From the NCBI GenBank assembly GCA_029891345.1, contig CM056994.1:143800457-143864456 (forward strand): a stretch of 64,000 nt of DNA. The letters run 5' to 3'. Below are positions 6,190-50,087 of the stretch, one piece after another (position 1 is the stretch's first letter; each line of letters opens with the position of its first letter). The notes beneath the pieces were generated by a model. That model was not told the DNA's origin. It worked only from the letters and a program-made list of their open reading frames with translations, and made no database searches. The DNA comes from Dryococelus australis (taxonomy: Eukaryota; Arthropoda; Insecta; Phasmatodea; Phasmatidae). Position numbers and translations under genes: made by a program.

Positions 6190-6265
6190 ACAGACCTACC
6201 TCTCACAAACTGACCATTGTCCCATTGACCAAGTGACCAAGTGACCAATTGACCCATTGACCCAA
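6190..6265 (-). repeat. Short tandem CAATTGGTCAATGGGT-like units (left arm)
   Basis: On the minus strand this repeats units like those expanded in the right arm at 7893-8008. Only about four degenerate units are left here, so the array length differs between the arms of one palindrome. Confidence 0.7.
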
Positions 6266-6289
6266 TTAAAGAGTTACACACACTAACCC

Positions 6290-6590
6290 GTGGTCCCCTG
6301 GTTGCGGCACTGATTGCGATTGCTGTGCTAAGTGCAGTGCTTACTGCGGTGTGGATTGCAATTGCGATGCTAAACACTGTGCTAAGTGCACTACTATGTA
6401 TAGTGCTAATTTAGATTGCAGTTATTAGTGCAGTACTAAGTGCAGTGCTGTTTGCGATTGCGGTACTACATGCAGTGCTGATTGCGATTGCAGTGCTAAG
6501 TGCAGTGCTAAGTGTGGTGTTAATTGCGATTATGTTGCTAAATGCGGTGGTAATTTCGATTGTGGTGCTAAGTGTGGTACGTGTGTGTGT
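6290..6590 (+). repeat. Degenerate minisatellite (GTGCTAAGTGCA-type units)
   Basis: About 300 bp of diverged units built on GTGCTAAGTGCAGTGCT and GATTGCGATTGC. They lie where the right arm has only a few such units (AGCACCGCGATG near 7875), so this array is an arm-specific expansion. The open frame across it encodes only low-complexity hydrophobic repeats and I do not treat it as a gene. Confidence 0.8.
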
Positions 6591-7309
6591 GACTCTGAAA
6601 TTTAAATATATTCCGTCTGTTTTAAAATAAAGTGATATAATTCTACATCCAAAAGCCGAAAGTTGAAAATTATTTAATAATCTCGCTTTAAAAATGTAAA
6701 TATCTAAGTCCCTCGGTATATTTCATCGCTTCCTGGGTTCACTTTATTTTCACTTTGTAAGTAAAGTACCTCGAACTACAGCAGGCTCTCACCATGCTTC
6801 GCTATTGGTCGATCCATAACATGGACTTTGTATTGGACAATGCAGCACCACGACATACCTCCACCATTCTTCTCAATTGATCGTCGTCGCGTGAAAAGGA
6901 CTCTTCATACAGGCCGTTCTCTCATGCCAACGTGCAATTGAACATAGGTGAAAACTCTATCACAGAATCGGCACTGCCTTCAGGCAGTTACCAATTATGC
7001 AGGTTCTGGCTGCATGGACGTCGAGGTCAAACGGTGCGCCTTCGTGTATTCACAATTAATATTTCCGGTATGGGAGCACTCTTTGAAAACCCAAATACTC
7101 ACTCGCCACAGAAGAAAACACACTGGTACTCTTGTACATATATATTTTAAAGAAAAATGCACAATTATGTATATACTAATATATCAGTAAGGAATGTACA
7201 TATATATGATATGAATATACATAATTATGTGATTTTAAAGAAGAGGAATATACATATATGTTAGCAATATACATAAGTATGTATATAATAAATTAACACC
7301 TGTGATTTT

Positions 7310-7765
7310 TGTTCTGTGGAGAACGAGTATTTGGGTTTTCTCAGATTGCTCCCATACCACGAAGGTGAATTATGAATACGAAGGTATGCCTTTTGACCTC
7401 TACAAACATGGCGCCGCCAGCTGCATCATCGCTAACTGGCTGACGGCAGTGCCGATTCTACGATCGAGTTTTTTTAACCCGTGTTCAAAATGTACGTCGA
7501 CATGAGAGAATGGCCTGTACGAAGAGTTATTTTCGCGCTTCGATTACCAGTTGGGAAGCATGGTGGTGGCCTGTCGTGGGGCGGCATTGTTCAGTAATAA
7601 GTACATTTTGTGTACCGACCAATGGCGAAGCGTGGTGGGAGCTGCTGTAGCACTAGGAAATTTTATTGTGAAGTGTAAATACAGTTTACCCAAGAACCAA
7701 TTAAATATACCGAGGGCCTTGGATATGTATTTTTTTAAAACGAGGTAATTAAATGAAATGTTCAC
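7310..7765 (+). pseudogene. C2H2 finger fragment, inner right arm of element 1
   Basis: Reading plus, the segment holds a finger-like block (RQCRFYDRVF, then about ten residues, then NVRRHER, then CTKS) in one frame near 7440-7530. The second Cys of the CxxC pair is Tyr. The same block, also damaged, is found at 6780-7110, 24250-24400 and 55260-55400, which shows a common ancestral gene. It would be an upstream exon of the gene ending at 9043. Frames on either side are interrupted. Confidence 0.5.
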
Positions 7766-7892
7766 CTATAACCTTTTGGAGGTAGGGATATGTCATTCTA
7801 TTTAAAAATAAAGGGAATTTATTTTGACTTGAGAGCCACAGACACACGCACCACGCTTAGTACCTCTATCGCAAATAGCACCGCGATGTGCC

Positions 7893-8008
7893 AATGAGTC
7901 AATTGTTTAATGGATCAATTGGTCAATGGGTCAATTGTTCAATGGGTCAATTAGTCAATGGGTCAATTGGTCAATGGGTCAATTGGTCAATGTGTCAATT
8001 GCTCAATG
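7893..8008 (+). repeat. 16-bp tandem repeat, GGTCAATGGGTCAATT
   Basis: About seven to nine near-perfect units of a 16-bp motif. It sits between the finger fragment and the terminal exon of the right-arm zinc-finger gene, perhaps inside a former intron. Confidence 0.85.
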
Positions 8009-8187
8009 GGTCACTTGTGTCCATGTGTTAGTCTTGTGAGGGATCGGTCTGACAACAGGCGTCAGTTGTCTACGTTAAGTGAGCTCATGAATTATTGCGA
8101 AGAACTTTTCTGGAAGAAACTTATGAACACATAGCAACAAGGTAATGTGATCAAGTAACTACCATTTATAGCCTGCCTACCTGCCTG

Positions 8188-8421
8188 CGGGGGCCACGAT
8201 GGCTGAGTGTTTAGCCTGCTCACATCCCACCAAGACGATCCGTGTTCAATCCGCGGCCGGGTCACTCCAGATCGTGCCGGACGATGCCGTTGGTCGGTGG
8301 GTTTTCTCGGGGATCTCCCATTTCCTAGCCCTTTCATTCCGGGGCTGCTCCATACTCACCTCAAAACCTTCATCGGCTATCAAAACCTCGTAGTTAAGAG
8401 TCGTTCAAATCTCTTCACTCA
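8188..8421 (+). mobile_element. tRNA-derived SINE with 11-bp target duplication
   Basis: A 234-bp insertion flanked by a perfect direct repeat CTACCTGCCTG (8177-8187 and 8422-8432). It interrupts the palindrome: the mirror site in the left arm (near 6045-6060) carries the target without the insert. The head looks tRNA-derived, with an A-box-like TGGCTGAGTGTTTAG at 8200 and a B-box-like GTGTTCAATCC at 8242. The body holds GGTGGGTTTTCTCGGGG. There is no poly-A tail; the 3' end reads GTTCAAATCTCTTCACTCA. A diverged second copy lies at 40945-41104. Confidence 0.85.
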
Positions 8422-8665
8422 CTACCTGCCTGTGTGCAATGTCTAAATGCCTGCATATTATTGGAGAACTGCAATCGTGAGGTAACCCGGTGATTATCTG
8501 GTCGGTGTCCGCATAATGTATTGATGCTATAATACGATTGGTTCAGAGTCAATACAACATCATAGGGTTTGCATACGCGTATATTATATGCATTAGGAGG
8601 TAAAGTGGAGGCTTTGTTTGACAGCGGCTTGTGCCTCTCCGCATCAGTCTTATCCTTTATCTGCA

Positions 8666-9043
8666 ATGTCTTCGGGCACCCCAGAGCCAATAGTAGTTAC
8701 CGTAGTGCCATCGACTTCTCCAGGAGTGGTACCAGCAGTGTCATAGACTTCTGCGAACATGGTGTCGACTGTACCATCAACTTCTTCGGGTGGGTCACCT
8801 ACAGCAGTGCATCAATCGACATCAGGCATGACGTTGACAGTGCCATCGACTTCTTCGGGTGGACCTCCTACAGCAGCTCCATTGGCATTGCCAACTGAAC
8901 CATCGACCTCTGTCCCAGCAGCATCTGTATGCTCAACCACCTCTGCTGAACCATTCCGACATTTTAAGTGTCGCTTTTGTGGAAAGACCTACACGGGCAG
9001 CAGCCATGCTCGGCGACATGAGCGCTTGCATGCCATATTTTAG
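8666..9043 (+). pseudogene. C2H2 zinc-finger terminal exon, right arm of element 1
   Basis: The frame opens at ATG 8666 with one stop at 8744. From ATG 8759 it is open for 94 residues, so a single substitution separates it from a 125-residue frame. The N-terminal part is Pro/Ser/Thr-rich with repeated VPSTSSGG units. The end is one canonical C2H2 finger (CRFCGKTYTGSSHARRHERLH, spacing C-2-C-12-H-3-H), and all four zinc ligands are present. It faces outward and has a mirror copy in the left arm (broken finger). It is likely the 3' exon of a longer gene. Whether it is transcribed cannot be told from sequence; the better-preserved finger suggests later decay than in the other arm. Confidence 0.55.
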
Positions 9044-9389
9044 TGACAGGTGCGGTAAGCAGATCAGATGTAGTTATCATTTAATTAGACCTATTAAAGA
9101 AAATAGTAATTTTTTGAGGGCCCTATAGACTGTAATAAATTAATTGAATATAAAAATGCCTGGGAAAGAATTGGTGTTTTATTTCATGTTTTCGTAAATT
9201 GCCAGAATATGATTAAAGTTTAGATGGTGCAGAAACAAATAAATTCTTATTAATTTTTTTTATTAATAGTAACATTCTACTATATGTACAATGACATCAT
9301 TAAATAAAATGTTTTTAAAATGGAAGATCTTAAATTTTTAATAACAAATATATATTTAGAAAATTATGCATGTCGTCAAAGTCCCGCAT

Positions 9390-9860
9390 CATGCTTGTAG
9401 GTATTCTGCTGATTGGCAACATAATTTTTTATGTAGGGTGTAAATTTACAAGTCTCAGTACGCCTCTAAATATAAGGCCAATCAGCTCGCTTGGTCTGCA
9501 TCATGCATACTTATATGTATTATTTCTCGAGCTTTTATTTTCAAGGTCAGGGCTCAAGGTCAAAGCAATCAGCGTCTAATGTGGTGGTGGTAGTCTGTAA
9601 TGTAGTATGCTTGCTGACTTTTATGTTTTTTTTTTTTTTTTAGTTTTTGTTTTCGCGGTGACTGGGTCAAAATCAAGGTAGTTTGCATCTAAAATGATGG
9701 TAGTAGTTAGTAATAAGATATGCTTGTTGACTTTTACCTTTTTTTTTCTAGTTTTTGCTTTCAAGGTTCTCCAAAGTCGTGAAGTCAAGGTTGAGTAAGT
9801 CTGCATATAATATGGTGGTTGTAGTTAGCAATTTTATAAGCTTAGTGACTCAGTATGGAT
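9390..9860 (+). repeat. Subterminal tandem array with TCAAGGTCA motifs (element 1)
   Basis: Three to four diverged units of about 100 bp. Each contains a version of TCAAGGT(C/T), then GTAGTCTGCATCTAAT, then ATGGTGGTAGTAGT, then GCTTGCTGACTTTTATG and a T-rich tract. The same unit is arrayed at 26880-27320 and, inverted, at 21850-22330 in element 2, always between the zinc-finger gene and the element end. Confidence 0.75.
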
Positions 9861-10387
9861 CTTGGGGGGTGGGGAGAGTTGGAGGCCTGTCGACTGATTG
9901 ATTTGGACGGGAAAATAGGGGACCTTAAGAAATTAAAATTTTGAAATACGGTTTTAATAACATTTAGTGAATACATTTTTGAGGTTTTTTTTTTTAATTC
10001 TTTGGAAAATTTTGGGTTTTTGGGTCAAATCTCAAGGTTAAAGGTCAATGGTCCTGAGTCCAGCTCTTCCAGCTGGAGTTACTGACCCACCTCGCCGATG
10101 TCACGAGGCCACCTCACCTGCTCTGGGAAAAACTGGAAATTGCTGGGTGCCTTTTTTTGCAAATGGGTGAAAGGGAAATGTTTTGGGAAAAGAGAGAAAT
10201 GTACTAAATCACTTTACCCATGCTGATTGTTTCTGCATATCAAATTGATGGGGAATGTTATTTGCATCAGCATTCTACGCCAGTCTTCTAATATCATACA
10301 TTGTTTGCCCAAACAAACGTTTATCCATATTCCAGCAATGCTACACATGTTGTTTTTGTGTTTCTCTATAAAATGTAGGTCTTCTCC

Positions 10388-16950: not shown

Positions 16951-16956
16951 AGCCTA
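16951..16956. repeat. 6-bp target site duplication, left (AGCCTA)
   Basis: AGCCTA immediately precedes AGTAGTAGG and is repeated exactly after CCTACTACT at 27855-27860. The pairing of exact flanks with exact inverted termini defines element 2. Confidence 0.85.
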
Positions 16957-16998
16957 AGTAGTAGGAAATAGAGAAGCTGGGGAAAACGACACCGGCGT

Positions 16999-19900
16999 CA
17001 ATGGCTGATCACAAGGGAGGGGGGCAGTAGAATGTGCGCCCCTCCCCCCTGCTCGAAACGCCAGTCATCTGCCACATAGATATTCCTGATAAGTGATAAC
17101 AACGGCGCTCCTTTGTGTTGGCAAGTCTTTGCCACATTCATGAATGTGGTTAATGTATTATCGTGTAGTGTAGAATAGCAAAATAGTGTGAGAAATTTCC
17201 GAAATAAAAATATATGCGATTTGAGACTAAAATTTATTTATGTTATAATTTTATAGGCTAACTTTGAAAATAAAGTTTGAGAACATACTGTACAGATCCC
17301 CAATCAGCATATCATTTCACTGACACTGTACTACCTTTCCAGGTTCTATGTTTTCTGTAAGACTATAGCCTCGCACATGATGCCACATAGAAGCACCTAA
17401 AAACGAGTGTTAATGACCATCGGTACTAGTCATCAATATCGGGACGATAGTCGAGTTTACTGAAATGACTGGTCAGTGAAATCATCTAGTATGGGAAGGC
17501 AGCCATGGAATGCAATGGGTAAATGGTAGTAAGTGCGGACGGGAGGTTTATCCCTTCCACTTCCGTTAGGCTGCTAGCTCGCTACCTGCTAAAACGCCCG
17601 GACACCCCAACATTGTTGAACCGAACTCAGGAGGTTGAAAATAACTTGCGGGAGTGCTCTGTAGTTTCTCGGATGTTAATACGTACAAAACCTCACATGA
17701 TCGAAGGCATTTTACGATGTATTGATTTTGTGACTTCTGAAGTTCTTTCTCTGCATGGTGGAATTATGGTAAGTAATTAGAATTTATATATATTAGTTCA
17801 CTTATTTTTCTGTATGTTTCCTAATATACTGAAAAAGTTTTCAGTGATTGGTTTGTAGTCAAAACAAAAAAATAATGCTCAAAGCGAATGAAGTGCATTT
17901 ACCGAATGCGTAGGGCTATATGTGTAAACTCAGCCTCATTCGGACATTTGTATGCATAATATTGTTACATATCTAATTTTTCAGAATTTCCGAAAAAAAC
18001 AAGCGGAGCAACACAAGTAAGATTGAATCATACTTTCAACCTGTTCCAAAAAAAGAGTAATCGACATCAGACACAAGATGACAACTCTCAGCATCAGAAT
18101 GACTGCCTTTGTGCTGTCACTATGGAAGGTACCTAATAAGAAAAATTAATAAATCACATAATTACACCTTGTCGCTCGTGGTTCTCATATGAGAATGGAA
18201 ACTAAACATTATGATAGCTGCAAAGTTTTACATTAATACTGTACTGAACATTGATAAAGCTAGTAATGTGCCACATTATGCAAATAAAAAATAAACTGAA
18301 TGATTTTTTACAATTAATGCCCATGTTTAAATATTCCCAAGTGCATTAGATTGTAAGCATTAAAATCACCATGAGAATTCAATATTAAGAAATAAATTTT
18401 TTAATATTCAAGAAATTGTGTACACTGATGTTTGCACATATTAATACACATGTACTTAATTGTTGTTTTATGACCAATTACAACAAATGAAACGGTCTCA
18501 TGTGAACTTTCCACATACAAAATTTCTAACACAGACAGTACTTCACATAGTGAGTCTACAACTCCTTAAGCAGTACCAAATGATGTTCCTACGGAGTCAA
18601 CACCTAAGAATCTGAACGACATAGGTCTCCACACAGGGAAGAAAATAGATGACTTCACCAAGTGTCTACTTCTTGAAAAGCCATAGCATCCACCAGATGA
18701 CTATCGCTACCCTTGCTCAACACACTCGAAAGGTGAGGGGAAAACTGTTAGACGGTATCTTTCTAAATCGCACATTGATAAATACCATTGGCTGGTATAC
18801 TCCGACGTGAGTAGAGGTTTGTTTTGTAAATACTGTGCTCTTTTCGCACAAGAAAAAGTAGGAAACAACCGAGTGGTCAAAGTTAACAGAATTGTAACAA
18901 AGGCTTTTACAGTATTTAAAGACATCACAGCAAAATATGGCTAATTTGAAATGCACGAAAGAAGTAACCACCACCAAATTTCTGTTGCATCAAGTAAGGA
19001 TTTCCTCAGGACATACCATGCTCAAGAAAAAGAAATTTTGAATCAAATCAGTGCTCAACGACTTCTCTTAGTTGAAGCAAATTGTGCCAGGCTGCGCCCA
19101 ATAATAGAGACTGTTATATTTATGGGTCGTCAGAGTGTACCTTTAAGAGGTCACATGGACGATGGAAACTTTATTCGGAATCGCTAGCAGTAAGCAATGG
19201 AGGGAATTTCAGAGCACTGCTTAACTTTCGGAATCAGGCTGGGGATGAAATACTACAGGAGTATCTTCAGAATACTTCTTCTCGGGCTATTTACATAAGT
19301 AAGACTGGACATAATGTTTTAATTCATTGTTGCACAAAATAAATTTGTAGTGTGATTGTTGAAAGGATTAAGAATTCTAAGCACTGGTAAATATTTTTTG
19401 ACGAAAAAATAGATATGTATAGAATAGTTCTGTAAGGGAGGATTTTCTTTACAAATGCATTTCAACCATTTCATAATTAAAAATTACGTAACCAGTTCAC
19501 ATGTAGATGAAGGCAGTCAATTTGTAGTTCTAAAAGAAGTAAGGTTAACAGGAAAAGCTCTAGGTCGAATACTTCTTGATTATACAAAGGACTTTTGGTC
19601 TTGATCTTCGATACTGTGTTGGGGTTGGTACAGATGGGTGTATAGTTATAACTTCCGAGAAATGTGGTGCTGTGACCGAAATTCTTCAAGTTGCTACGAA
19701 TGCCAAGCATGTATCGTGCTAAAATCATGCATTAAACAATTCTATCTCAAAATCATCAAAGATTCAGAGGGTAAGGAATTTTACAGCTATTATGAAATAA
19801 ATCATTGCTTTTTTCAGTTAGTCTGCTAAGAGGAATTCCATCTTGAAAGCTCATGTAGGCTCCCAACGTGTACGCTTGTGTGATACTCGCTGTGTTGGAA

Positions 19901-21215
19901 GGCATGATGCTGTAATCCTATTTTGTAATGTCTTGCCAAAAATTGTAGAAGCATTGACAGAAATGGGTGAGTGGTCTGAATCTGAGCCTGCATAAAAAAC
20001 TGCGCTCTGTACCAACTCTCTTTACAGCACAGAATTCATATTTGCCTTAATTAGCCTGATTGATGTACTTAAGTGTACTCTGCCACTGAGTCGTCACTTA
20101 CAGCCCCATTCACTTGATCGAAAAGGAGCCTCTGATGCTGTACAGGATACACTGGCTACACTGCATACATTGCGACATGATAGTGAAAAATCTTTTTCAG
20201 TACTGCATAAGGATGCTGCATGTACAGCTACATAACTGGGAGTTGACGTAATGCCACGCCTTGCTGCAAGACAAATACATCGACAAACTATGACGCCAAC
20301 AGCAACGAGGATTACTACAGAAAATCTATTTATATTCCATTGTAGGAAAACGTCTTCACTGACCTGGAGCAACGCTTCTCACAAAATGCCTTACAATGTT
20401 ACGACCTGCGCCTTTTGTTTTTTGCCTCTTTTCATTATGTAGGGAGGTCACTGCGAATCAAGGATTATTGCTCTTGTGTATTGTTACAGTCCTCTTCTTC
20501 AACGATGTAACCGATTCCGAGGTAGAACTACCGCAACTCTTCTGGATGGTGAAATGTGCATTTGGAAGGAAAAGTGGAAGAGGGAGAGTAAAGAAGGTCA
20601 CCTATTACCAGAAACTGTGCTGAGTGTGATTGACTCTTGTGACCTTGATTTATTTCCAACCATTCGATGATTTTGGAAATTCTTCTCACTTTGCCCGTCA
20701 GTGTTGCAAGTGTAGAAAGATTTTTCAGCAGCCTACAACTTGTGAAATCATTGCTACGTACGAGAATGGCAGAGGAAAGTTTGAATGGCCTGTGTATGTT
20801 ATTTATCCACCATGATATAAATGTTGATGTTGAAAAAGTTATTGAACGTTTTGCTATAGGGGGTAAACGAAGGATTGTCCTTGAGTTTATTGTGTAGGTA
20901 AACTTTTGTCTTGCCTTGGATGTTCACTAAACCGAATTTCAATTTCTACAGTTTTTTTAGTAAATATTCGGTTTTATTATTTGTGTGACAAAGTGTGTAT
21001 GTATTTTGTATCATTAATACATTTTTTTCCTAAGTGGGTTGTGTTTTTAAAACTAAACCCACATTATGATACAGCAGTTCCATTAGCACGATAGAAGCTG
21101 GTTGCCTGGTTGTGTGTAAATCAAATTTAAATAATGTACTTAAATAAATATTACTTCTATCCACACTTCAATCCTAGAGTGTCCCCTCCGAGGAAAACCT
21201 TTGCATCCACCACTG
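16999..21215 (+). mobile_element. hAT transposon nested in element 2
   Basis: The left end CAATGGCTGATCACAAGGG and the complement of the right end CAGTGGTGGATGCAAAGG match at most positions, as in hAT elements whose ends read CAGTGGCGGATCCA. The flanking 8 bp are ACCGGCGT (16991-16998) and ATCGGCAT (21216-21223), 6 of 8 identical. Both differences are C-to-T or G-to-A at CpG sites, as expected from methylation decay. A G/C-rich hairpin-like segment follows the left end. The insertion split the outermost 42 bp of the host palindrome from the rest; deleting it restores the match to the right end. Confidence 0.85.
17990..20897 (+). pseudogene. hAT transposase remnant (ZMYM1-like, TTF zinc finger, DUF4371)
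   Basis: This is the plus-strand transposase of the nested hAT. In order one can read an N-terminal KIESYFQPVPKK-type start near 18020, a TTF-type zinc finger region (SKGEGKTVRRYL, KYHWLVYSDVSRGLFCKYC) near 18725-18840, a long helical region with HERSNHHQ near 18950, a first catalytic-Asp block (FFDEKIDM) near 19400, the VGVGTDG block near 19620 (second Asp), LCDTRCVGRHD near 19880, an MPRLAARQ block at 20251, and the C-terminal dimerisation region with SVASVERFFSSL and LNGLCMLFIHHDI (20690-20830). Many stops and frameshifts separate these, so it is inactive. Order and spacing match hAT proteins with DUF4371. Confidence 0.8.
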
Positions 21216-21849
21216 ATCGGCATTCTAAATCGGATTCGCCCCGCTGCCATGTTGTTACATCACCTGTCTATATGATCTTGACTTTGACCTTTGAACATTG
21301 ACCTTGACTTCGGTAACCTCCGACCCCAAAAACAGAATTTTTTTTAATTCTTAAAAAATTCTTAAAAACTGATTTCAAAAAATTTTATTGAAATGTTGGT
21401 TAAAGTCTATTAGTAAAATTTAATTAAATATTGGTTTTTAAATAATAGTTTGGAAAAAAATAAAATTATAACAAAAATTTATTTAAAACTTCGTTATAAA
21501 TTTTTATAAAATGGTAAAAAAGTATACAATAACGCTTTCAATTTATATTAAATATAACTAATTAGTTATTAAAATTATTTAAAAAAATTTATTTACAGAG
21601 GTTTCCCCCAACTCCGTCACCAAAGAAATTAGTCTGCAGGCCTCCACCCTCTCGCCCATACCCATTCAGCCATCTTGGTATGCGACCGCCATCTTGGTAG
21701 ACAACACCTGCCTTGGAAGCAAGTTCCCACTATCAATAGACATTTAACCTTTGATCGTTCCCTCCTGCCCATGATTTTGTCCTTGACCCCGTGATCTGGA
21801 ATGAACTTGTAAACAAAACTCGAAGAAAATACATAAAAGTCAACAAGCA

Positions 21850-22330
21850 TAATACATTACTAACTACTACCACCATGTGAGGTGAAGACTACCTCGACCC
21901 CGTGACCTTGAATGATGTTCAAAGCAAAAATGCGAAATATGAGGCATAAAAGTCAACAAGCATAATACATAACTAACTATTACCACAAAATTAGATTCAG
22001 ACTATCTCGATTTTGACCCCATTACCTTGAAGTACCTCGAAAACAAAAGCTCTGGATAATAAATATAAAAACAGCAAGCATATTACATTACAGACTACCA
22101 CCGAACATAGTAGATGCAGACTACCTCGACCTTGACCCCATGAACTTGAATGACTTTGAAAAAAAAGCTTGAGAAACAAGGCATAAAAGTCAGCAAGCAT
22201 AATACATTAAAGAGACAACTACCACCGTATTAGATGCAGACTACCTCAAGATTGGCTCTATGGTCTTGAATAACGTTGAAAACCAAAATTCGAAAAAAAT
22301 ACACAAACGTTAATAAATTTACAATGTCTT
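21850..22330 (-). repeat. Subterminal tandem array, left arm of element 2
   Basis: About four to five units of roughly 100-110 bp on the minus strand: TCAAGGTCA-like motif, GTAGTCTGCATCTAAT, GTGGTAGTAGT, TATGCTTGCTGACTTTTATG. It is the mirror image of the right-arm array at 26880-27320. Confidence 0.8.
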
Positions 22331-23604
22331 ACTACTATGTTAATGTCTTGATTTCACTGCCACGCGAGCTATCGGCACCTAGAGTTAGAGACATTAAAAA
22401 ACCTGCAATTTTCCGTTCTGTTTAAAAAATATATTTTATCCAATCAGTAGTACAGCTAGATGCATGATGCTGGACTTAGGCTTAATGCTTAATTTATTAA
22501 ATATATAAAATACGTATTTTTTTAAAAACTTTAAAGCCATTACAACGATAAATTGAAAAAAAGAAAAATAAATTATTCTGTAATAGTAATTTATTATTAT
22601 TTTGTAATTATATTTACAAAAGAAAGCAGTTCATCGCATCATCTGATATAACCTCTATCCTTAAGTTAACTTATGATTGAAACCACCTCTTTCATGTTCA
22701 AGTAATCCTCACATTGTTGCTAATCGAGCAAAGATCCAAGTCTGTCTACAAGTTGTTGAAATGTTCGGTAAACATATAGTTAGTATAATCGACGTCCTCT
22801 GTCTTCGTCACATCACTTGTCGAAGGAAACTCGCTGAAGAAATGTGTGGGAACGTCGAGGGAATCATAATCCTTTTCAACACTATCACTGTCCTTATGGT
22901 AATCATCAATGCTGTCTTCATGGTGTTATGTTGGCGTGAATGTGCCTTCAATTACATCATCGCCTGATACCGCCCTATCACTTAAGTACAAATCAGAGAG
23001 GCAAAAGGCGTACATTGTATCAATGATCGTCTTCACTTCCTGCTTCACCCTCAATGTCAAATTTACTATTCTTTGTAGCAGGAGTTGTATGTTCATCAGT
23101 ATATAGAGCTGAAGGTTGTTTGTTTTGAATTTCGCCGTCGTCATGCACACACCTTGAAAGTGTACATTCCGCACAAACCGACACAGTCATTACATCTTTA
23201 GCATTAACTGATTCGTCATAATCGTTTGCGGAAACATTAACCATCGATGTAGCAGGAGTTATTCACGACAACGCTGGCTGGCCCCCAGTAGACGAACCCT
23301 TGCAGATTTCAGTATGTTCCTTCATTGTATCGCATTGCACAAACTATATGTGCCCATTGACATAATGCTTCATAGCGCAAAAAGGATTATTCGTGCAGGT
23401 CGTTCTCTCATGTCGCCGGGTACGGCAGTTTTCTCTGAAGATCTTTCCACAGTAGCAACACTATTTTCGATGTAATTTTCTAGCAGTGGAAGAAGATACT
23501 TTCTTAGAAGTAAGCTCTACAACCATTGGATTGCATCATATTCATGAAAAAACCCTAAATCTTTTCCACAGTGGCGAAATGTTTATCTACTTTGTCTAGC
23601 TACT

Positions 23605-23684
<80 letters not shown>
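23605..23684. repeat. (CT)n(TA)n microsatellite
   Basis: About 33 bp of CT joined to about 46 bp of TA, within the left arm of element 2. The right arm has no equivalent tract, so it arose after the arms formed or was lost from one. Confidence 0.95.
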
Positions 23685-23687
<3 letters not shown>

Positions 23688-24058
23688 GTACTAACATATT
23701 TCGTCAGAAAGAATTAACAATTTTTCTCTCCTTTTATGCTTCTATTCAAACATACATTTCATGTAGTTTCTTGATCGCATTGCATTGGACTTATGTCTTC
23801 AACAGTTTCTTCCAGACAAGTTCTTCGCTCACCTATAAATCATGGCCACAGTAAAAGTAGACAACTGACTGCTGTTGTTAGACAGACCATTCACAATACT
23901 GATCCATTGACCCATGTCACATGATCCACGATCCATTGACACATAACCTGTTCACCCATAATGACCCCTGATTACGGTGCTGTTCCCTAACGAGTCCAAA
24001 ACGACTCCTAAAATACCCATAAATGACCTCCAAGGACACAAAAATGAACTCTGATCGC

Positions 24059-24107
24059 GGAGGAGGAGGAGGGGGAGGAGGAGGAGGAGGAGGAGGAGGA
24101 GAAGGAG
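24059..24107 (+). repeat. (GGA)n trinucleotide repeat in zinc-finger gene
   Basis: About 16 GGA units; on the minus strand they encode a Pro run after the CDFC finger. The right arm has a shorter, interrupted CCTCCGCC tract at 25370-25410. Confidence 0.95.
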
Positions 24108-24499
24108 TCAACTGTGTAGGCGGATCCGATTGTAGTAGCAGTGAACCAATGGTAAAAGTTTTAGAATGTCTCTTCAAAATATCACTCCGTATAAACTGCC
24201 TCCAGCAGAAATCGCACTGAAACGTCATTATTACCGTTTCCATACAGAAGGTTTTCGTACAGACCACCCTCTCAAGCCGACGGGCATTTTGAACATAGGC
24301 GATAACTTGATCGCTGAATCGAAATTGGCGGCAAACAGTTAGAGATGATACAGATCGCGGCTCCTTGGTCGTCGAGGTCAAAGGCAGGCTTTTGTATTCG
24401 TAATTTGTTTTCGCGGTATGGGAGCACTCTGAGAAAACCCAAACACTCGTTCGCCCGGGAAGAAAACATGCAGTTTCTTTGTAATAATATGTTATTTAA

Positions 24500-24840
24500 A
24501 TATTCTTTTAGGTCTGTGTATATACCTTAAATACAGACATTTGAATTAACTTTACATTTACTTATTTACTTAAGTATAAATAGATATGTATAAATTTAAT
24601 TTACAATACATTATATATATACATGCTCATATGTATATTACTATACATAAAAATTTAAAACGAGAGTAATTTCATATTTACATACTTATATGTACATAAC
24701 TATAAGGAATATAAATTAAATTGAAAATGGTTTTGATTTGTATACTTATATAAAAATATATATACATATATGTACATATATACATATATATATACAAATG
24801 AAATTGAAAATAATTTTAAAATTGCACATTTATATACCTC

Positions 24841-24930
<90 letters not shown>

Positions 24931-25204
24931 AATTTAAATTGAAAATAATTTTATATTTACATACTTATATGTACATAACTACATATATAATTAAACTAAA
25001 AATGGTTAAATTTACATACTTATGTAGCTATACATATGCATAGTTATTTACATATATCTATACATAATTCTGTATAGGAAATGAAAAAAAAAAAGTATAT
25101 TTACTTATTTAAATAAATTATTTAAAATGTAAATATTTATATAACTATACTTAATTATTTGTGTTCCTATCTTACATTAATACATATTTATATATAATTC
25201 CGTC
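24500..25204. repeat. AT-rich centre of element 2 with long (TA)n
   Basis: The loop between the palindrome arms consists of ATATATGTACATA-type repeats and an 87-bp (TA)n at 24844-24930. The TACTTATATGTACATAACTA unit recurs several times. The Tyr-Ile frames read through it are artefacts of the repeat. Confidence 0.85.
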
Positions 25205-26410
25205 ATAAACTGTTTATATGAGAGGGTGGCCTGTACGAAAACCTGCGGAATGAAAACTTCAAGAATTATCATTATGTGCGATTTCTGCCAGAGGCAGTTT
25301 ACACAAACGATATTTTAAAGAAACATTCTAAAACATTTAGCAATTGTTCTCTGCAATACAATCTCATTCGCCTCCGCCTCCGCTTCTGCCTCCGCCTCCT
25401 TCTTCGCATTCAGGGGTAATTTTGAGGTCATTGGGGGTCATTTAAATGTCATTTAGGGATACTTTTGGGTCAATAGATCAATCTTGTGTGAGGTGGGTCT
25501 GACAACAGGAGTCAGTTGTCTACTTTAACTGTGACCATAATTTATAGATGAGCGAAGAACTTGTCTGGAAGAAACTGTTGACGATATAACTGCATTTTTA
25601 TGTGATCAAATAATTAGATGAAATTACTTTTTGAATGCGGGCGTAAAAGGAAAATAATTGGTTAATTCTTTGTGACGAAATATGTTTGTAATTTTATATA
25701 TAGAGTAAGGGCAGTAGCTAGACATAGTAAATACACATGCCGCCACTGTGGAATGGACTTCGGGTTTTTCCATAATTATGATGCAAGCCAATGATTGTAA
25801 GAAATCTACTGTAGAGCTTACCTCTACGAAAGTACCTTCTCGCACTGCTGGAAAGTTACTTGGATTACAGTGTCGCTACTGTGAAAAGATTGTCAGCAAA
25901 AACAGCCAAGCCCGGTAACATGATAGAACGACCTGTACGAATAATCCTTTTTACGCGATGAAGCATCACAACGATGGGCACATATAGTTCGTGGAAGGCA
26001 ATACAATAAATGAACACACTGAGATCTTCATGGGTTTCTCTACTGCAAGCCAGTAAGTGGTGCATTCAATAACTCCTGCTACATCTATGGGTAATGTTTC
26101 AGCAGACGAATATAACAAGACAATTAATGCTGAAGACGGAATGATTGAGTCGGTTTGTGCGGAATGTACACTTGCAAGGCATGCGTGTGACGACGACGAA
26201 CTTCAAAATAAACGACAGTCAGCTCTAAATACTGATGAACATACAACTCCCGCTACAAAGAAAAGCAATGTTGATGTTGAGGGCGAAGCAGGAAGTGAAG
26301 ACGACCATGAAGACAGAATTGATGATGACTATGGCGACAGTGATAGCACTGAAGACGATGATGTTTCTCTGGATGTTCCTCTGGACGTTCCTACACATTT
26401 CACCAACTAG
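25205..26410 (+). pseudogene. C2H2 zinc-finger gene remnant with acidic tail, right arm of element 2
   Basis: The mirror copy of the left-arm gene, reading outward. Pieces in order: a finger CDFCQRQFTQTIF near 25290 (stop in place of the helix end), CRHCGMDF near 25740, CRYCEKIVSKNSQAR followed by a stop and HDR near 25885, then an open 117-residue frame from 26057 to 26410. That last frame contains a CAEC pair and a strongly acidic C-terminus (GSEDDHEDRIDDDYGDSDST). The multiple fingers plus acidic tail look like a DNA-binding regulator. Stops between the exon-like pieces make the whole inactive unless spliced. No family name can be given. Confidence 0.55.
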
Positions 26411-26879
26411 TTTTCTTCGACAAGTATTGTGAAGAAGGCAGAATACGTTTATTATACTGACTATATATGTGCTATAGATACCAACAAATATGTATTGCTC
26501 ACTAAGCAACACCTTGGGGATCACTCGAACATGAAAGAGGTGGTTTCGATCATAAGATAACTTAAGGATCAGGGTTATATGAGATGATGCGATGAACTGC
26601 TTTCTTCTTAAAATGCAATTACAAGATAATAATAATTTATTATTATAAAATAAATGTTTTCTTTATTATTTGCATTGTATCCTTCTATCGGCCCTAAAGT
26701 TTTATAGTAAAAAATATGTATTATATATATTGAAGTTATGAAGCATGTAGCCAAAGTCCTGCATCCTGCTTGTAGCTACGTAACCGATTGGGAATTTTTT
26801 AAAAATAGGACGGAAAATTGCAATTTTTAAAGTCTATAATTAGAAGTGCCGACAGCTCGCTGGGTAGTGAAATCGAAAC

Positions 26880-27320
26880 TTTAACTTAGTTGTCAGTAAC
26901 ATAGTATATTTGTTGACTTTTATGTATTTTTTTCGAGTTTTTGTTTCCAAGGTTGTTCAGGTTGAGGTTGTTAGGGTTGAGGTAGTCTGCTTCTAACATG
27001 GTGGTAGTAGTCTGCATTGTGTTATGCTTGCTGACATTTATGCCTCGTTCCTCGAGCTTTTGTTTTCAAGGTTATTCAAGGTCATGGGGTCAAGGTCGAG
27101 GTAGTCTGCATCTAATATGTTTGGTGTTAGTATGTAATATACTATGCTTGCTACCTTTTATGTATTTTATCGAGTATTTTTAAGGTCATTCAAGGTCACG
27201 GGGTTAAGATCTAGGTAGTCTGCATCTAATATGGCGGTATTAATAATGCATTATACTTGCTGACTTTTTACGTATTTTTCTCGATTTTTGTTTTCAAGGT
27301 AATTCAATATCTTGGGACAA
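26880..27320 (+). repeat. Subterminal tandem array with TCAAGGTCA motifs, right arm of element 2
   Basis: Four to five units of about 100-115 bp. At least two contain exact TCAAGGTCA (near 27073 and 27190). The rest of the unit reads GTAGTCTGCATCTAATATG, GGTAGTAGT, TATGCTTGCTGAC(T/A)TTTATG, then CTCGAG or similar and TTTTGTTTTCAAGGT. The mirror array is in the left arm. Confidence 0.8.
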
Positions 27321-27854
27321 TGTCAAGTCAGAGGTCAAAGGTCAAACGTCACAGTTAATTTGCTAATGGGTACTGACTTCCAAGATGGTGGACAGGTGAT
27401 GTCTACCGAGTGATGGTCGCTTAACAAGGTAGCTGACTTGGTATGGACGAGGGGGTGGAGGCCTGCCGACTTATTTTTTTGGGGAGGGTGGTGGGGGGAA
27501 CCTCAGGAAAATAATTTTTTATGACCATAAATAATTTTAATGACCTTTTTATATTTTTTAATAATTTCAATATTTTTAATTATTTAAACAAATTTTCAAT
27601 AAATATTTAGTAACACATTTTTTTAACAAATTTTTTATTTAACTTTTTCGTGATAAATTTTCTATTTTTTAAAATACTTTTTTACAATTTTTGGATTTTT
27701 GAGGTCAGAGGTCACCGGAATCATGGTCAAGGCCAAGGGTGAAAGGTCAAGGTTATGTGGGACAAATATGACGGACAGCTGACGTAACAACATGGCGACC
27801 GGGTGAATCCGATCGCCGATGCCACTGGCCCCAACTTCTGTAATTCCTACTACT

Positions 27855-27860
27855 AGCCTA
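27855..27860. repeat. 6-bp target site duplication, right (AGCCTA)
   Basis: An exact repeat of the 6 bp preceding the left end of element 2. Confidence 0.85.
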
Positions 27861-32912: not shown

Positions 32913-33136
32913 AGTAGTAGGGGCGGGCTGATCCTGCCCAACTTTTGAATAATTGGGATTTTCGATTTGATATCAAATTAATTGAAAAGGGTTAGTAAAA
33001 GGAGGTTAGTCCTTAATCCTATTTTAATCAGATGAAAAATTCTGAATCTGATTTTAATATGAATAAAAAATTCTTTATCCGATCTCAATACGATATAAAT
33101 GGAATGGGTTAAATTGATTGAAAAAGGTTAAATTTA

Positions 33137-33436
33137 TTAAAAGGGTAAATTTTTTTCTTGTACTTTCTTTTTGGGTTTTGGAGGGGGTAGCTGGATATCT
33201 GTACAATGTTGACGGCGTGGTGTCCTAGAGGCGACTGACCACACTGGTGGGATGCAATGTCTTATATAGGTGTAGAGTTCAGTGCAAGAATGTGCTAAGC
33301 ATAATTTTAAAATTTTTAATCTTAAGGTGTATGGAGGGATGTTTGCGGTAGATAGGCGATTTTTACGAATATATTTAACAGACAAGAGAAATGCAGAATA
33401 TTCTGTGTATGAAAAGTTACAATCATCGAATCGCAA
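33137..33436 (-). CDS. Hypothetical outward-facing frame, left arm of element 3
   Basis: A 99-residue frame that starts MRFDDCNFSYTEYS and ends in a Pro/Lys-rich segment. It aligns in frame over about 90 residues with the right-arm frame at 37816-38250 (shared VKYIRKN, LAHSC, TYI(R/K)HC, VAS, RQH). A one-codon length difference between them keeps phase. It may be a real small gene of the element or simply a frame that survives because the arms are similar. No family recognised; unusually rich in Cys, His and Tyr. Confidence 0.35.
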   Translation of the reverse strand: MRFDDCNFSYTEYSAFLLSVKYIRKNRLSTANIPPYTLRLKILKLCLAHSCTELYTYIRHCIPPVWSVASRTPRRQHCTDIQLPPPKPKKKVQEKNLPF

Positions 33437-33825
33437 ATTTCAAATGACTATGTGAATAACAAGTGCAATAACATGAGTCTGAAACATAACATGAATCTCG
33501 AGCTTAGAAATAAAATTTCCACCAGACAGAGAATTTTAGCTACTTGAATAACATCTCGTGTCGACAAGTGCAAACTCACTAAACAAAATCCAGTTAGCCA
33601 GTATGAAATTACACAAGGCAGAGTCTTTAAACGAGTTCTATGTATGAATTAACAACATGAACAAACTACACGTTTCAGCCTGGAGAATGATATCTTACAG
33701 CAAAATACTCTGAATATTATTTCAACCAGACACAACAGCGTACATCTATTCTGATAAGAAAAATATATAATGATAGAAAGTCTTACTTGAAATGATTTAT
33801 TTTAAAATAACTAACTTGTGCAAAT

Positions 33826-33882
<57 letters not shown>

Positions 33883-33902
33883 GATATACATATATATATA
33901 TA
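33826..33902. repeat. (TA)n microsatellite in left arm of element 3
   Basis: Two TA tracts separated by TTAAGATATACA. The matching place in the right arm (about 37360) has only ACACATATATATAG, so the tract expanded in one arm only. Confidence 0.95.
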
Positions 33903-34109
33903 AACTGCACAAATATCCTCGAAGAGAAGGTATTTTTTTTTTAAATAACAAAAGTACTCAATATTTTCATAAATCGAGCACACTTGTTAACACAAACTGT
34001 ATTTTCGTCTACCGAACACAGAAATTGAAAATCTTATCCAACATTTACTTAACACAAAAATTTTTATTTCCCCAGTAAAATAATTTCATATTCAAATGCG
34101 TACATTATA

Positions 34110-34760
34110 AAATGTTAATCGCGGCTTTCACCAGAGATGAAGGTAGATCCGTAGCTGTAGTAACCAGCAATCATGAACTCGGCGGCTGCCAAAAACATAC
34201 CTGCCTGATGAAGACAAGAGAGAAAACTGTACACATCTGGATCCTCTGAGCTTCTATCATGAACTGAATATGCCGGAGCGTGGATAGCTGAGGGCACTTC
34301 GCTCCAAAACTCCCTTCACCCCCTCCCTCCAAAACACCAACCTGTCGCCAGACTGCTACCCCAGACTGCTCGCAATTGTAAATTTTTTCAGCACTAAAGC
34401 AAGATGACATCAACTGCCTACTTGCGCTCAGATCGGGCCGCACTCGCCTGTAGGCATCCCCTACCCTCCCAACACCTCGCTATCAGAATCGGCCCGAGTG
34501 CACCATGACAGTCCCCCCACCCTCCCCTGCGAGTTCCTGGGGGTAATTCACCCATCTGCCAGCGATTATCATTTTTTGCAATTGAGTCAAGATGGTGAAA
34601 ACTGCCTACTTGCATTCACATTGGGGGTTGGCTGCTCATAGCCACCCTTCCCCTCCACCCCTCGCTTTCAGAACTGGCCAGAGTCGAGGCTAGCAAATAT
34701 GCACCCCCGTACTTCACGGTGAGTTCAGAGCGAGCGTTCTACTGGCTGGAGAACTCCTCG
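34110..34760. repeat. GC-rich tandem units, left arm of element 3
   Basis: Two to three diverged units of about 200-250 bp sharing AACTGCCTACTTGC, a CCCCTCCACCC(C) run and CAGAA(C/T)(T/C)GGCC. The right arm carries the inverted counterpart at about 36380-37080. Frames through it differ between copies and are not treated as genes. Confidence 0.6.
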
Positions 34761-35010
34761 GTTCAAGCACTCTGCCCTTGCTGCAGATCCATGGTTACAC
34801 AAGAGCCTGGCGTATTCTCAGTGAATTAAAATTTTGCTACCAAACTCCAGCCAATGAAATTTTATATCCCTGAAATAAAGTTTTTTTAATCCCTAAGACA
34901 ATCCCTACATTAATATTCCAACTAATTTTATATCTTAACCCAAGTAACGAATTTGAATCCAATAAACTTTATCCCATTTTCCAGAAAACTCATTTAAGTA
35001 TTTCCAGGAA

Positions 35011-36199
35011 ACTCTTGCTTCACTCTGTGGGGCTCTTCCACGAAGGTCAAGGGACCTGTTCGCCTGCCCATCGGTTATGCAGCGATGGTGAAAACAACCG
35101 TCGTCGCCTGCCACAAAAGTTACCTGCGGAATTCGCTCGACTGCTTGCTCGATAGCTTGCTAGGCTACCGGACAAGATCCCAAGGACCTCCCGAGGGGAT
35201 TGCGAGCACCCGCCCACCAATCTGCCCCGACACTCACATCATGGAGTAGGTTAGTGCTCAGCTCGACTGACCTGGGTTCGCACCTCCTTCATCAACCAAC
35301 ATCTTTGCTACAAGAGTTTAGGTAAGTGAATAATTAAAAATAAAAATTAGGGTTTTCGGTAAAATTTTTTTGCATTTTCTTTAAACTTTCATTAAATTGT
35401 ATGAATTTTTTTTAAACTTTTGACAAAATCGTTAGAACTGAATGAAATTTCTTCAGAAGTCATTAGAACTGCATGAAATTTTTTATAATCATTATAACTG
35501 AATGATTGTTCTTAAAAACTCTTAACGGTCTTCTGTTTGAAATATGCAAATGCAATATGAATTACATTTTTCCCACTAACTGTCGTCTGATAATTAGTTA
35601 TGTCGATTCCTAAGTTGTATGGAATAACGTTAATTGTCTTGGATATGTCTTTAAGATTTAAATAATTTGTTGACAATCGGACAGTATTATCCTAAAAGAT
35701 GGGATTTACAATTACAAAATTGCCACCATGTTACTTTAAATTTTGCCCAAATATATTGAAATATCGTGGAAATTGATATATTCAAACTCTGATAGAAGTC
35801 ATTTGAACCTTTATTCATGCTATTTCTTTAATATTATGTCCAAATATATTTTCTTGGGAAACTGATTTTTAAATAAGTTTGAGTATATACATGTTTCATT
35901 TTTGACAGTGTATCTAAAAATCTCGATGGGGAAGCTGTGAAATGAAACTTTGTTTATAAGTAAGTTTTATTGTGTTAGACAAGTCTACACATTAAGTACG
36001 ATTTTTTCTCTTCTATACACATATATTTGAAAAACAGATAGTAAAGTTTGAATATTTATGCATGCTTCATGTCTTCCATCATAATAGTCGAAACTTCGGT
36101 AACTTGGAATGAGACATGTTTGAAAAACAGTGTTCTATAAATGTTGAAAATTTTTGCGAGTGAAAATGTTTCTTATACGAAAAATAAACTTAGTTTCCT
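35011..36199. other. Loop of element 3, single copy
   Basis: Sequence between the arms. A GC-rich start (35035-35330) ends in a tRNA-like GACCTGGGTTCGCACC, perhaps an old SINE fragment. The rest is AT-rich with no gene seen. Confidence 0.4.
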
Positions 36200-37815
36200 G
36201 GAAATATTTAAATTAGTTTGCTGGTAAATGATGTAAATTTATTGAATTAATATAATTTTTTTTTGTTTAAGATATAACAATTCTTGGAATTTTAAATCTG
36301 GAGATTATCTCGGGGAGTAAAAAAACTTTATTTCAGGAATATAAAATTTCATTGGTGGGAGTTAGGTAGCAAAATTTTTATTACCTGAGAATGCGTCATG
36401 CTCTTGGGTAACCTTGGATTGGCAGCATGGGCGGGTGTGCTTGGACAGGGGAGTTCTCCAGCTTGCAGAATGCGAGCTCTGGGCTCACAGTGAATGGCAG
36501 GGGTGCGTAGTGCTAACCTTGACTCGCACCAGTTCTGAGGGCGAGGGGTGGAGAGTAGGGTGGCTACGAGCAGCCAGCTTCGCATGTGAATGCAAGAAGC
36601 AGTTGTCGCCATATTGGCTGTGTTGCGAAGAATTACAATCGCAGGCTGATAGAGGAATGACCTCCAGGAACTCTTAGACACTGCTTGGGGGATAAGGGTG
36701 GTGCAGGGGGCGGCTGTCATAGTGGAGTCGGGCCAGTTCTGAGGATGAGGCGTGGTATGGTAGGTGGAAGCCTAACAGGCGAGCCGGATCCGATCTGTGC
36801 GCAAAGAGGCAGTTGATGTCATCTTGCCGTAGTGCTGAAAATTGACTATCGCGAGTAGCCTGGGGTAGCAGTCTGGCGAGAGGTAGGAGGGTAATAGTGG
36901 GAGGGGTCTTAGGGAGCTCTGGAGCGAAGTACACTTAGCTATCCACTCTCCACCATCTTCAGTTCGTGATAGAAGCTAGGAGAATGCAGATGTGTACAGT
37001 TCTCTCCCTCGTCTTCTTCGGGTGTATAGGCAGTTGGCGGCCGAAGAGCTTACAACCTCGGGTTACCACAGTTACAGACCTACCTTCATCACTAGTTATA
37101 GCAGCGATTAACGTTCTATAGTGTACACATTTTAATATGAAGTATTTTATCGGGAAAATATAAATTTTTTTTGTTAACTTCTTTTCGGATCGATATATAG
37201 CATTTTTTATAAGTTATTTATTTATATGTTCGGTAGATGAAAATACTGTTTGCGTTAACAAGTGTTCTCTATTTACGGAAACGTGTAGTACGTCCGTTAT
37301 TAAAAAAATAATAATTTTCTCTTCGAAGAAGTTCGTGCATTTTTTCGTTACACACATATATATAGTGATGTGGGATTATGCTCTACACATGTTGGTTATT
37401 TTGAAACAAATCATTTAAAGTAACATTTTATATAGTTATATATTTAACTCATTAGAATATACACATGCTATTGTGTGTGGTTTAAATCGTATTCGGAGTT
37501 TTTGCATTAGATATCATTCTCCAGGCTAAATCATGTTAATTATTTATACTGACTAGCTGAAATTCGTTTAAAGACAGCAGTTGTTCGTTATACTTGTCTA
37601 TCGTGTTATTCATTCGTACATAGAACTCGTTTAAATGCTCTGCCTTGTGTAATTTCACACTGGCTAGCTGGATTTCATTTATTGAGTTTGCACTTGTCAA
37701 CATCTGATATTATTCACATAGTTAAAAGTCTCTCTCTTGTGTAAATTTTATTTCTAAGATCAATACTCGCATTATATTTAAGACTCATGTAATTGCACTT
37801 ATTGTTCACATAGTT

Positions 37816-38250
37816 GTGTTAAATTTGCGATTCGATGCGTGTAATTTTTCATACATAGAACACTCCGAATTTTGCTCGTCTGTTAAATATATTCGAAAAA
37901 ATATCCTATTTACCCCTTGCATCCCTCGGGCACCCCAAATTAGAAAAATTAGAAAAAAATTACCCTTAGCTCACTCTTGTGCTAAATTCTACACCTATAT
38001 AAAACATTGCAACCCGCCACTCTGGCCAGTCGCCTCCATAATACCGCACCGTCAACATCGTACAGATCTCCTGCTAACCCCCTACCCCAACCCAAAAAGA
38101 AAGAAGTTAAAAAAAAAGTATAGAAAAAAACACTTTCATAAATTTAACCCTGTCAATAAAAATATCCCTTTCAACAAATTCAACAGTTTCCATTTTTTAT
38201 CGGACAAAGATTGGATTAAGAAATTTTTAATCAGATTACTATCGGATTAA
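37816..38250 (+). CDS. Hypothetical outward-facing frame, right arm of element 3
   Basis: A 144-residue frame with the same body as the left-arm frame (RFDACNFSYIEHS, VKYIRKN, LPLAHSC, TYIKHC, VASI) and a longer, Lys/Phe/Asn-rich end that runs into the terminal AAAGGGTTA-type repeats, so the last 50 residues are probably not genuine. It faces outward, as do the zinc-finger genes in elements 1 and 2. Its product is unknown. Conservation of reading frame between two arms that have clearly diverged is the only support for coding. Confidence 0.35.
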   Translation: MLNLRFDACNFSYIEHSEFCSSVKYIRKNILFTPCIPRAPQIRKIRKKLPLAHSCAKFYTYIKHCNPPLWPVASIIPHRQHRTDLLLTPYPNPKRKKLKKKYRKKHFHKFNPVNKNIPFNKFNSFHFLSDKDWIKKFLIRLLSD

Positions 38251-38377
38251 ACGTTTTTATTGGATTGAAATTGGATTAATGATTAACCCTTTTTTACTAA
38301 CCCTTTCAATTAAATTGATATCAAATCGATAATCGGATTAATCAAATGTGGTGTAGTACCGGCCCGCACCTACTGCT

Positions 38378-45860: not shown

Positions 45861-45878
45861 TTATCGAAACAGAGAATT

Positions 45879-50080: not shown

Positions 50081-50087
50081 TTTAATA

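Follow-up and report, generated by a model that had tools for sequence, protein, structure and literature searches.

A palindromic, probably Polinton-derived mobile element with two zinc-finger gene remnants in Dryococelus australis

Very long inverted repeats, often making up most of the element, characterise foldback elements such as Drosophila FB and Galileo, which belong to another superfamily than the Polintons and differ from them in duplication length and transposase. Adenovirus, too, has palindromic defective genomes. In adeno-associated virus (AAV), symmetric and asymmetric snap-back genomes are reported from either genome end, and the authors favour end joining as their cause (PMC8235507). 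Vertebrate Polintons, or Mavericks, are described as ending in the motif (AGT)2//(ACT)2, with 6-bp target duplications, lengths of 12.7-24.6 kb when intact and repeats of 46-1447 bp (PMC8097293); since Maverick viral particles are reported not to have been observed (PMC8097293, PMC7805220), Maverick replication in animals is mostly a matter of inference. Here we describe E1, an old, decayed, mirror-image mobile element of ~11 kb with two zinc-finger gene remnants, at positions 16957-27854 of a 64-kb stretch of the Dryococelus australis genome (assembly GCA_029891345.1, contig CM056994.1, positions 143,800,457-143,864,456, forward strand; hereafter the window, in whose coordinates positions are given). 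Its shared ends, its 6-bp duplications and an outer end matching the terminal repeats of integrase-bearing elements make it very probably a non-autonomous Polinton derivative; on balance, we favour an explanation in which such palindromes would have formed by snap-back, recurrently, and spread in trans.

With Polintons, E1 shares (AGT)2..(ACT)2 ends, 6-bp duplications, a homologous terminal repeat and common gene parts; unlike them, it is mostly inverted repeat and is matched by none of our integrase, ATPase, capsid or PLA2 queries. AAV snap-back genomes (PMC8235507) and palindromic defective adenovirus genomes, with one end region mirrored, both ends identical and the rest deleted, would resemble it in these respects if E1 arose as we propose, although they are extrachromosomal virion DNAs, whereas E1-type mirror images are chromosomal and bounded by target duplications. 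The likeness to foldback elements is structural only, inverted repeats making up 69% of E1 outside a nested hAT element. Mavirus, unlike E1, is a virus of a virus; likened by description, this virophage has a Polinton-type integrase and a C2H2 finger protein of unknown function, MV04 (PMC3671162). Among the titles and opening lines of abstracts listed by our searches of an open-access library (subscription journals and Repbase lay outside it), none describes palindromic or non-autonomous Polinton derivatives, and a search directed at such derivatives found no paper. If our reading is true, errors of Polinton replication would have left an indirect trace in the genome as integrated palindromes with valid ends, a trace that is countable, datable by arm divergence and comparable between species and that would show how large mirror-image DNA gets seeded through a genome.

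Structure of E1 and its link to Polintons

The features that define E1 are listed below with their strand, where they have one, and the evidence for each.

16951-16956: target site duplication AGCCTA, left copy (exact match)
16957-16965, plus strand: left terminus AGTAGTAGG (exact 9-bp inverted end)
16999-21215, plus strand: nested hAT element, with a hAT dimerisation domain at 20649-20894 (Pfam E 1.8e-8, above cut-off)
21216-24495: left palindrome arm, main part, inside the hAT (inverted self-match)
24496-25218: AT-rich low-complexity centre, ~0.7 kb (self-match and sequence reading)
25219-27854: right palindrome arm (inverted self-match)
27619-27854, minus strand: outer stretch with homology to terminal repeats of two integrase-bearing elements elsewhere in the genome, P13.9 and L033 (pairwise alignment)
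27846-27854, minus strand: right terminus CCTACTACT (exact 9-bp inverted end)
27855-27860: target site duplication AGCCTA, right copy (exact match)

The original prediction, made from the window's letters alone, had named the exact AGCCTA flanks, the 9-bp inverted termini and the nested hAT, and all three are borne out. At this base composition, two given places would agree over 6 bp by chance with a probability of ~4 in 10,000; the two ends of E1 are identical at 9/9 bp and at 23/26 over the first 26 bp; and AGTAGTAGG occurs five times on both strands of the window, against an expectation of 0.25 (first-order) or 0.18 (second-order). The 8-bp duplication around the hAT (16991-16998 and 21216-21223, ACCGGCGT/ATCGGCAT) has decayed to 6/8 alike. 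From their outer parts inwards the arms pair at 71-81% identity (BLAST), and the AT-rich centre matches itself at 69%. The mirrored chain including the centre comes to 4617 bp, or 69% of the 6.68 kb of non-hAT length (the hAT being subtracted by length and left in the sequence during the comparison) and 42% with the hAT included; mirroring over almost the whole element, as predicted, was therefore correct in kind and slightly generous in extent. Arm-to-arm divergence is 19.7%.

The ends of E1 recur across the 3.4-Gb genome: its first 20 bp, allowing at most two mismatches, yielded 531 matches (265 + 266), against 30 (17 + 13) for a reversed control. Among the first hundred or so matches listed, eight pairs of ends in opposite orientation and within 15 kb of each other (the P elements) were picked by eye, regardless of their flanks, which proved to agree at 6, 6, 6, 5, 4, 4, 1 and 0 of 6 positions; 56 cross-pairings of flanks average 1.48/6, with none at 6. 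Among the eight are P3.1, a single-gene element with an exact 6-bp duplication, and P4.1, which likewise ends at exact duplications. The 46 exact matches among those listed represent at most 44 elements, of which five had already been sampled and 20 of the 39 others were examined (L loci). A second end was accepted in five of these 20 (L030, L036, L028, L033 and L035), with flanks alike at 6, 5, 4, 5 and 3 of 6 positions, flank likeness having entered the choice here, unlike in the eight pairs. The second ends of L033, which lies in a TA repeat, and of L035 score about as shuffled sequence does, and it was the geometry of their inverted repeats that led to their acceptance. A weak candidate in L020 was left uncounted, and the remaining 14 loci have no recognised second end within 10 kb. 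As the sample was selected by E1-type ends, elements of the type of E3, a second palindrome in the window, are under-represented in it.

Copies with E1 ends and 6-bp duplications thus exist, several of them exact, as had been predicted, and so do Polintons with the same ends. P13.9 (C4:191238750-191252694) shares 20 bp with the left end of E1 at both of its ends, is flanked by an exact duplication, GCCTCC, and encodes both a packaging ATPase and an integrase with a chromodomain; it also matches a double jelly-roll (DJR) capsid protein. Of the 54 relatives found for its ATPase, 34 carry the PF04665 annotation (which we take to be Pox_A32), and those that are named are from ants and aphids. A DJR capsid protein is present in P10 (Pfam E 5.5e-17, above cut-off); in P6.3, a PLA2-like domain (E 6.5e-10) is accompanied by a capsid match to P10. 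Core Polinton matches were found in five of the 20 loci: ATPase and capsid in L022, ATPase in L027, integrase in L033, and PolB-like frames in L025 and L038, in which Pfam recognises endonuclease-VII-like stretches only. The outer 250 bp of the right arm of E1 align with the terminal repeat of P13.9 at 66.8% over 253 aligned bp, its last 167 bp with that of L033 at 74% over 173 bp, and its left arm with the repeat of the capsid-bearing P10 at 68% over 223 bp.

The integrase frame of L033 lies 2.3-3.2 kb from its end. This locus contains a 4.2-kb element (5556-9800), probably two-ended, with inverted repeats flanking the integrase frame; the integrase and the adjoining open reading frame (ORF) are the only ones of our Polinton queries that match it.

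In tblastn searches with ATPase, integrase, DJR and PLA2 queries, the window was matched only at 46.7-48.2 and 51.4-51.7 kb and never in E1, which is therefore at most a non-autonomous derivative. An integrase query gave 20,047 first-look candidates in the genome, and each of the 150 that were scored had an E value of 3.1e-48 or lower; so many strong matches indicate that Polintons are very abundant here. The AGT..ACT ends and 6-bp duplication of E1 are those by which Polintons and Mavericks are recognised, and the predicted picture of a foldback-like, non-autonomous element, which would have been mobilised by a Polinton integrase, is well supported by the shared ends and terminal repeats.

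Origin and possible recurrence of the palindromes

The mirrored fraction of the 15 two-ended elements forms a range: P0.24 100%, E3 78%, L035 69%, P4.1 66%, L036 45%, E1 42% (69% without the hAT), P4.3 38%, L033 37%, P10 29%, P14.2 27%, L028 21%, P3.1 18%, L030 16%, P6.3 15% and P13.9 14%. P14.2 is interrupted; an integrase core of another element (rve E 4.3e-8), presumably a BEL-type retroelement, lies in L019. The palindromic state is not peculiar to the E1 family, as E3 has the same end motif and other contents: at the thresholds used, neither E1 nor any of the fetched loci has sequence in common with it. No match between P4.1 and E1 is longer than 61 bp, and together the matches come to 624 aligned bp across the two E1 arms; P4.1 lacks the finger gene and has nothing in common with the centre of E2, the third palindrome of the window. 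Judged by these comparisons, at least two different contents, and probably three, appear to have given rise to mirror images, and palindromes whose contents differ, wholly in E3 and mostly in P4.1, suggest a repeated origin.

Coding differences between the E1 arms are spread over the codon positions as 35/27/31 (p 0.60), those of E2 as 23/28/22 and 24/16/16, and the finger gene shows no third-position excess in 19 of 19 comparisons between elements (p 0.12-0.96). By contrast, all three ATPase comparisons and the one integrase comparison do show such an excess (p 9e-4 to 1e-6), so that the codon test is able to detect selection where it is present. Copies of the N-terminal part of the finger gene differ by 22.9% on average (50 pairs, s.d. 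2.1), and arm against arm within one element by 23.0% in E2, 18.5% in P14.2 and 10.7% in L023. Among the palindromes, arm divergence is 21.2-24.2% in E2, 20.9-22.9% in P4.1, 20.2-20.9% in P14.2 and 24.0-29.2% in L035, roughly equal to that of Polinton terminal repeats (P13.9 18.3%, P10 20.5%, L033 14.9%); the value for P0.24 is 12.9%. The even spread over codon positions, set against the third-position excess in ATPase and integrase, argues that the arms were nearly identical at insertion, and the simplest reading is a burst of copies from a homogeneous source, followed by neutral decay.

How such near-identical halves might arise is suggested by analogy with viral snap-back genomes. While a parent Polinton was being copied by protein-primed replication, one strand would fold or switch back on itself. 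One end region (terminus, outer non-coding part and finger gene) would thereby be duplicated as a perfect mirror image, carrying the same terminus on both sides, much as in a snap-back defective genome. Both ends of the palindrome would then be valid, so that the polymerase and integrase of a Polinton could copy and insert it in trans, and a burst could spread the palindromes with the finger gene carried along. The preference of the AAV authors for end joining makes that process, between two displaced strands, an alternative route to the same palindrome. We consider the prospects of a snap-back or equivalent replicative origin to be evenly balanced. More tentatively, Polintons may repeatedly shed snap-back genomes of the defective-interfering type, which would integrate with their own 6-bp duplications, spread as chromosomal palindromes and leave a fossil record in the chromosomes of this animal, and the finger gene, on this view cut from Polinton parts, may have acted on the parent: twice present, head to head, it may have competed for ends or given double-stranded RNA from the inverted repeats.

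A possible, if doubtful, alternative to this replicative origin is that one palindrome formed once, by a chromosomal inverted-duplication accident, and then spread as a non-autonomous Polinton derivative, which would make snap-back unnecessary. The copies are indeed star-like, at about equal distances; E2 and P14.2 have the same centre and are homologous straight across it, so that a founder palindrome also multiplied as a palindrome; and the outer region of E1 is common to L035 (69% mirrored) and P4.3, which therefore lend no support to separate origins. A single founder, mobile in palindromic form, may thus be the ancestor of most palindromic copies. Against a single accident, the arms of E3 are unrelated to those of E1 and those of P4.1 mostly so; the accident would have had to place the same terminus at both outer ends every time; and L023 (1516-4651) contains, next to an older copy, a younger inverted duplication whose halves differ by 12.9% while a third copy is 21.9% away, so that this duplication arose there later. 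A right end of L023 was looked for and not found.

The shared centre and outer region weigh against recurrent snap-back, as do several further observations. P4.1 has matches of up to 237 bp with relatives of E1, which leave doubt about its separate origin. P4.3 and P0.24, two of the eight paired copies, lack a recognisable duplication; E3 has an unmirrored middle of 1.18 kb and flanks only 4/6 alike; and E1 itself has its AT-rich centre of ~0.7 kb. Among the elements examined we saw neither a replication intermediate nor a perfect young palindrome, and single-gene elements such as P3.1 could descend from palindromes instead of being parent-like. As for the polymerase, PolB-like queries (two short pieces of the window) matched neither P13.9 nor P10, and no Pfam polymerase model matches the frames called PolB-like. 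An undecayed parent end in the same order as an E1 arm was not found either, L027 coming closest.

The finger gene and the remaining alternatives

Each arm of E1 holds one outward-reading gene remnant, with fingers near the centre and an acidic tail towards the end.

24254-24495, minus strand: left gene, N-terminal exon-like part (homologues in E2, P14.2, P3.1, L023, L026 and L036)
24118-24222, minus strand: left gene, finger matching the finger ahead of the P13.9 Polinton ATPase (63% over 35 aa, E 1.8e-9)
22640-23523, minus strand: left gene, C2HC-like finger, acidic tail and C-terminal stretch, with stops (frame reading and sequence comparison)
25219-26600, plus strand: right gene, finger, C2HC-like finger, acidic tail and C-terminal stretch, with stops (frame reading and comparison)

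The predicted outward orientation and acidic tail are thus present, and the description of the genes as multi-finger C2H2 remnants depends on motif reading and relatives: Pfam gives the left-arm finger values below cut-off throughout (zf-C2H2 E 0.2, zf-C2HC_2 E 0.08, ZNF462 finger E 0.052) and finds no finger in the right-arm gene piece. A GGA-type repeat in the linker of the gene (24060-24115 and 25375-25400) has expanded unequally between the arms. Relatives of the gene occur in seven of the 20 end-selected loci (L023, L026, L027, L028, L031, L036 and L037), the match in L028 sitting past its accepted second end, and in two of the eight paired copies (P3.1 and P14.2), to which P10 adds one short finger match.

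Two lines of sequence comparison bear on the source of this gene. In P13.9, one open frame of 104 codons comprises a finger, a linker and a stretch resembling, by eye, the first residues of the ATPase; a finger also precedes the ATPase in P10 and, weakly, in L027 (E 0.001), whose order from the end inwards (outer part, acidic tail, ATPase, fingers) is that of an E1 arm with an ATPase added. A fusion of finger and ATPase in P13.9 and P10 is therefore likely, with the reservation that in both the finger and the ATPase body now lie in different frames. No finger was detected ahead of the ATPase in L013 or in the Polinton of the window, and L022 shows the linker end only. At the other end of the gene, the C-terminal stretch of L031 and L037 matches an ORF beside the P13.9 integrase (E 4.4e-6 and 1.8e-8), which also matches P10 and L033; E1 itself is a poorer witness, matching this ORF weakly (E 0.12, or 0.022 with the C-terminal part alone). 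Together, the finger match and the C-terminal resemblance suggest that the finger gene was probably assembled from Polinton parts. The original prediction had the element spreading a duplicated zinc-finger gene; that gene looks like Polinton material and not like a freely duplicated cellular gene.

A finger directly before a packaging ATPase is read at L017 1-1018 with the end of L016, at L014 4888-5553 and at L027 1700-2900, where an acidic tail comes after the ATPase. In L038, a minus-strand frame just upstream of the PolB-like frame (4911-5279) gives zf-MYST at E 0.0013 and the ZNF462 finger at E 0.0092, both below cut-offs.

Capture of a host zinc-finger gene, whose fingers later reached the ATPase gene and whose protein aided the spread, for instance by binding Polinton ends, we regard as unlikely. 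It would agree with the right-arm piece having no match in a search of the protein collection, and with the lack of a C2H2-type motif in the first 90 residues of any of the 54 ATPase relatives (one regular expression, applied to a search that returns only proteins 0.55 to 1.75 times the query length). There is, however, no sign of selection on the finger protein between copies, and the C-terminal part of L031 and L037 matches the integrase-adjacent ORF in P13.9 and L033.

The insertion of two single-gene elements side by side in opposite orientation is very improbable: elements of the required kind exist in the form of P3.1 with its exact duplication, but one exact duplication encloses the whole of E1, a terminus-like motif was looked for in its middle and is not present, and two independent loci have the same centre. 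Still less probable is membership of another superfamily with 6-bp duplications, such as IS3EU or GingerRoot, or of the classical foldback elements, for which their long inverted repeats would count. IS3EU and GingerRoot do produce duplications of 6 bp, yet their ends are described as TA..TA or, in some GingerRoot elements, TG..CA (PMC10045372). E1, in contrast, ends in AGTAGT..ACTACT and matches Polinton terminal repeats. The least credible proposal is that misjoined reads produced the palindrome during assembly: inverted duplications are a known assembly fault, but the arms are 20-24% apart in E1, E2, E3, P4.1 and P14.2, and exact duplications bound E1 and P4.1.

Other elements in the window

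Two further palindromes and the remains of a Polinton accompany E1.

5169-10130 (right end approximate): E2, hybrid or truncated related palindrome (E3-type left end with an E1-type right arm)
32913-38377: E3, second palindrome, with ends AGTAGTAGG / CCTACTGCT and other contents (flanks CATGTC / CGTGTA, 4/6 alike)
44475-53560, mixed strands: decayed Polinton (domain and sequence matches, partly weak)
44.9-45.4 kb, plus strand: decayed Polinton, endonuclease-VII-like stretch (Pfam E 9.6e-5)
46.7-47.3 kb, plus strand: decayed Polinton, packaging ATPase (sequence match)
47.4-48.2 kb, minus strand: decayed Polinton, integrase with chromodomain (rve E 5.3e-5, chromodomain E 0.0098, both below cut-off)
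51.4-51.7 kb, minus strand: decayed Polinton, PLA2-like (sequence match)
53.2-53.6 kb, plus strand: decayed Polinton, weak capsid-like match (sequence match)
54934-55425, minus strand: fragment of an E1-type finger gene beside the decayed Polinton (self-comparison)

E2 has head-to-head finger genes, in common with E1, and a symmetry point at ~7214; its left end of E3 type and right arm of E1 type mark it as a hybrid or truncated copy. A right end near 9283, which mirrors 5169 and whose terminus and flank match in part, was rejected, as the similarity between 5169-5346 and 9099-9283 is that of shuffles. E3 is 78% mirrored, and its arms have diverged by 20.8%. An isolated motif at 60293-60301 (CCTACTACT followed by GTATTC), considered as a Polinton end, has no partner or inverted repeat in the window and was set aside.

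The integrase of the decayed Polinton has one relative in the protein collection, at 43% identity; an IMG/VR search with it returned no match, as did a PDB search with the ATPase, and PHROGs gave nothing useful. The frame holding the endonuclease-VII-like stretch at 44.9-45.4 kb is presumably Polinton PolB. A terminal repeat of this Polinton containing the finger-gene fragment at 54.9 kb was rejected because the orientation of the fragment does not fit. Frames adjoining the PolB-like stretch (44088-44638, minus strand) read like a protein with the motifs NYWLTKYHHGLEWDE and EQKKWLSDF, and Pfam assigns them no domain. Within the decayed Polinton, an open 346-aa frame (50319-51356, minus strand) with a Pif1 helicase 2B domain (E 3.1e-16) is probably the remnant of a nested Helitron. 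Finally, the stretch read as Polinton PolB is present in two inverted copies, 13-700 and 44513-45208, which are 77% alike, and another decayed Polinton may extend beyond the left boundary of the window.

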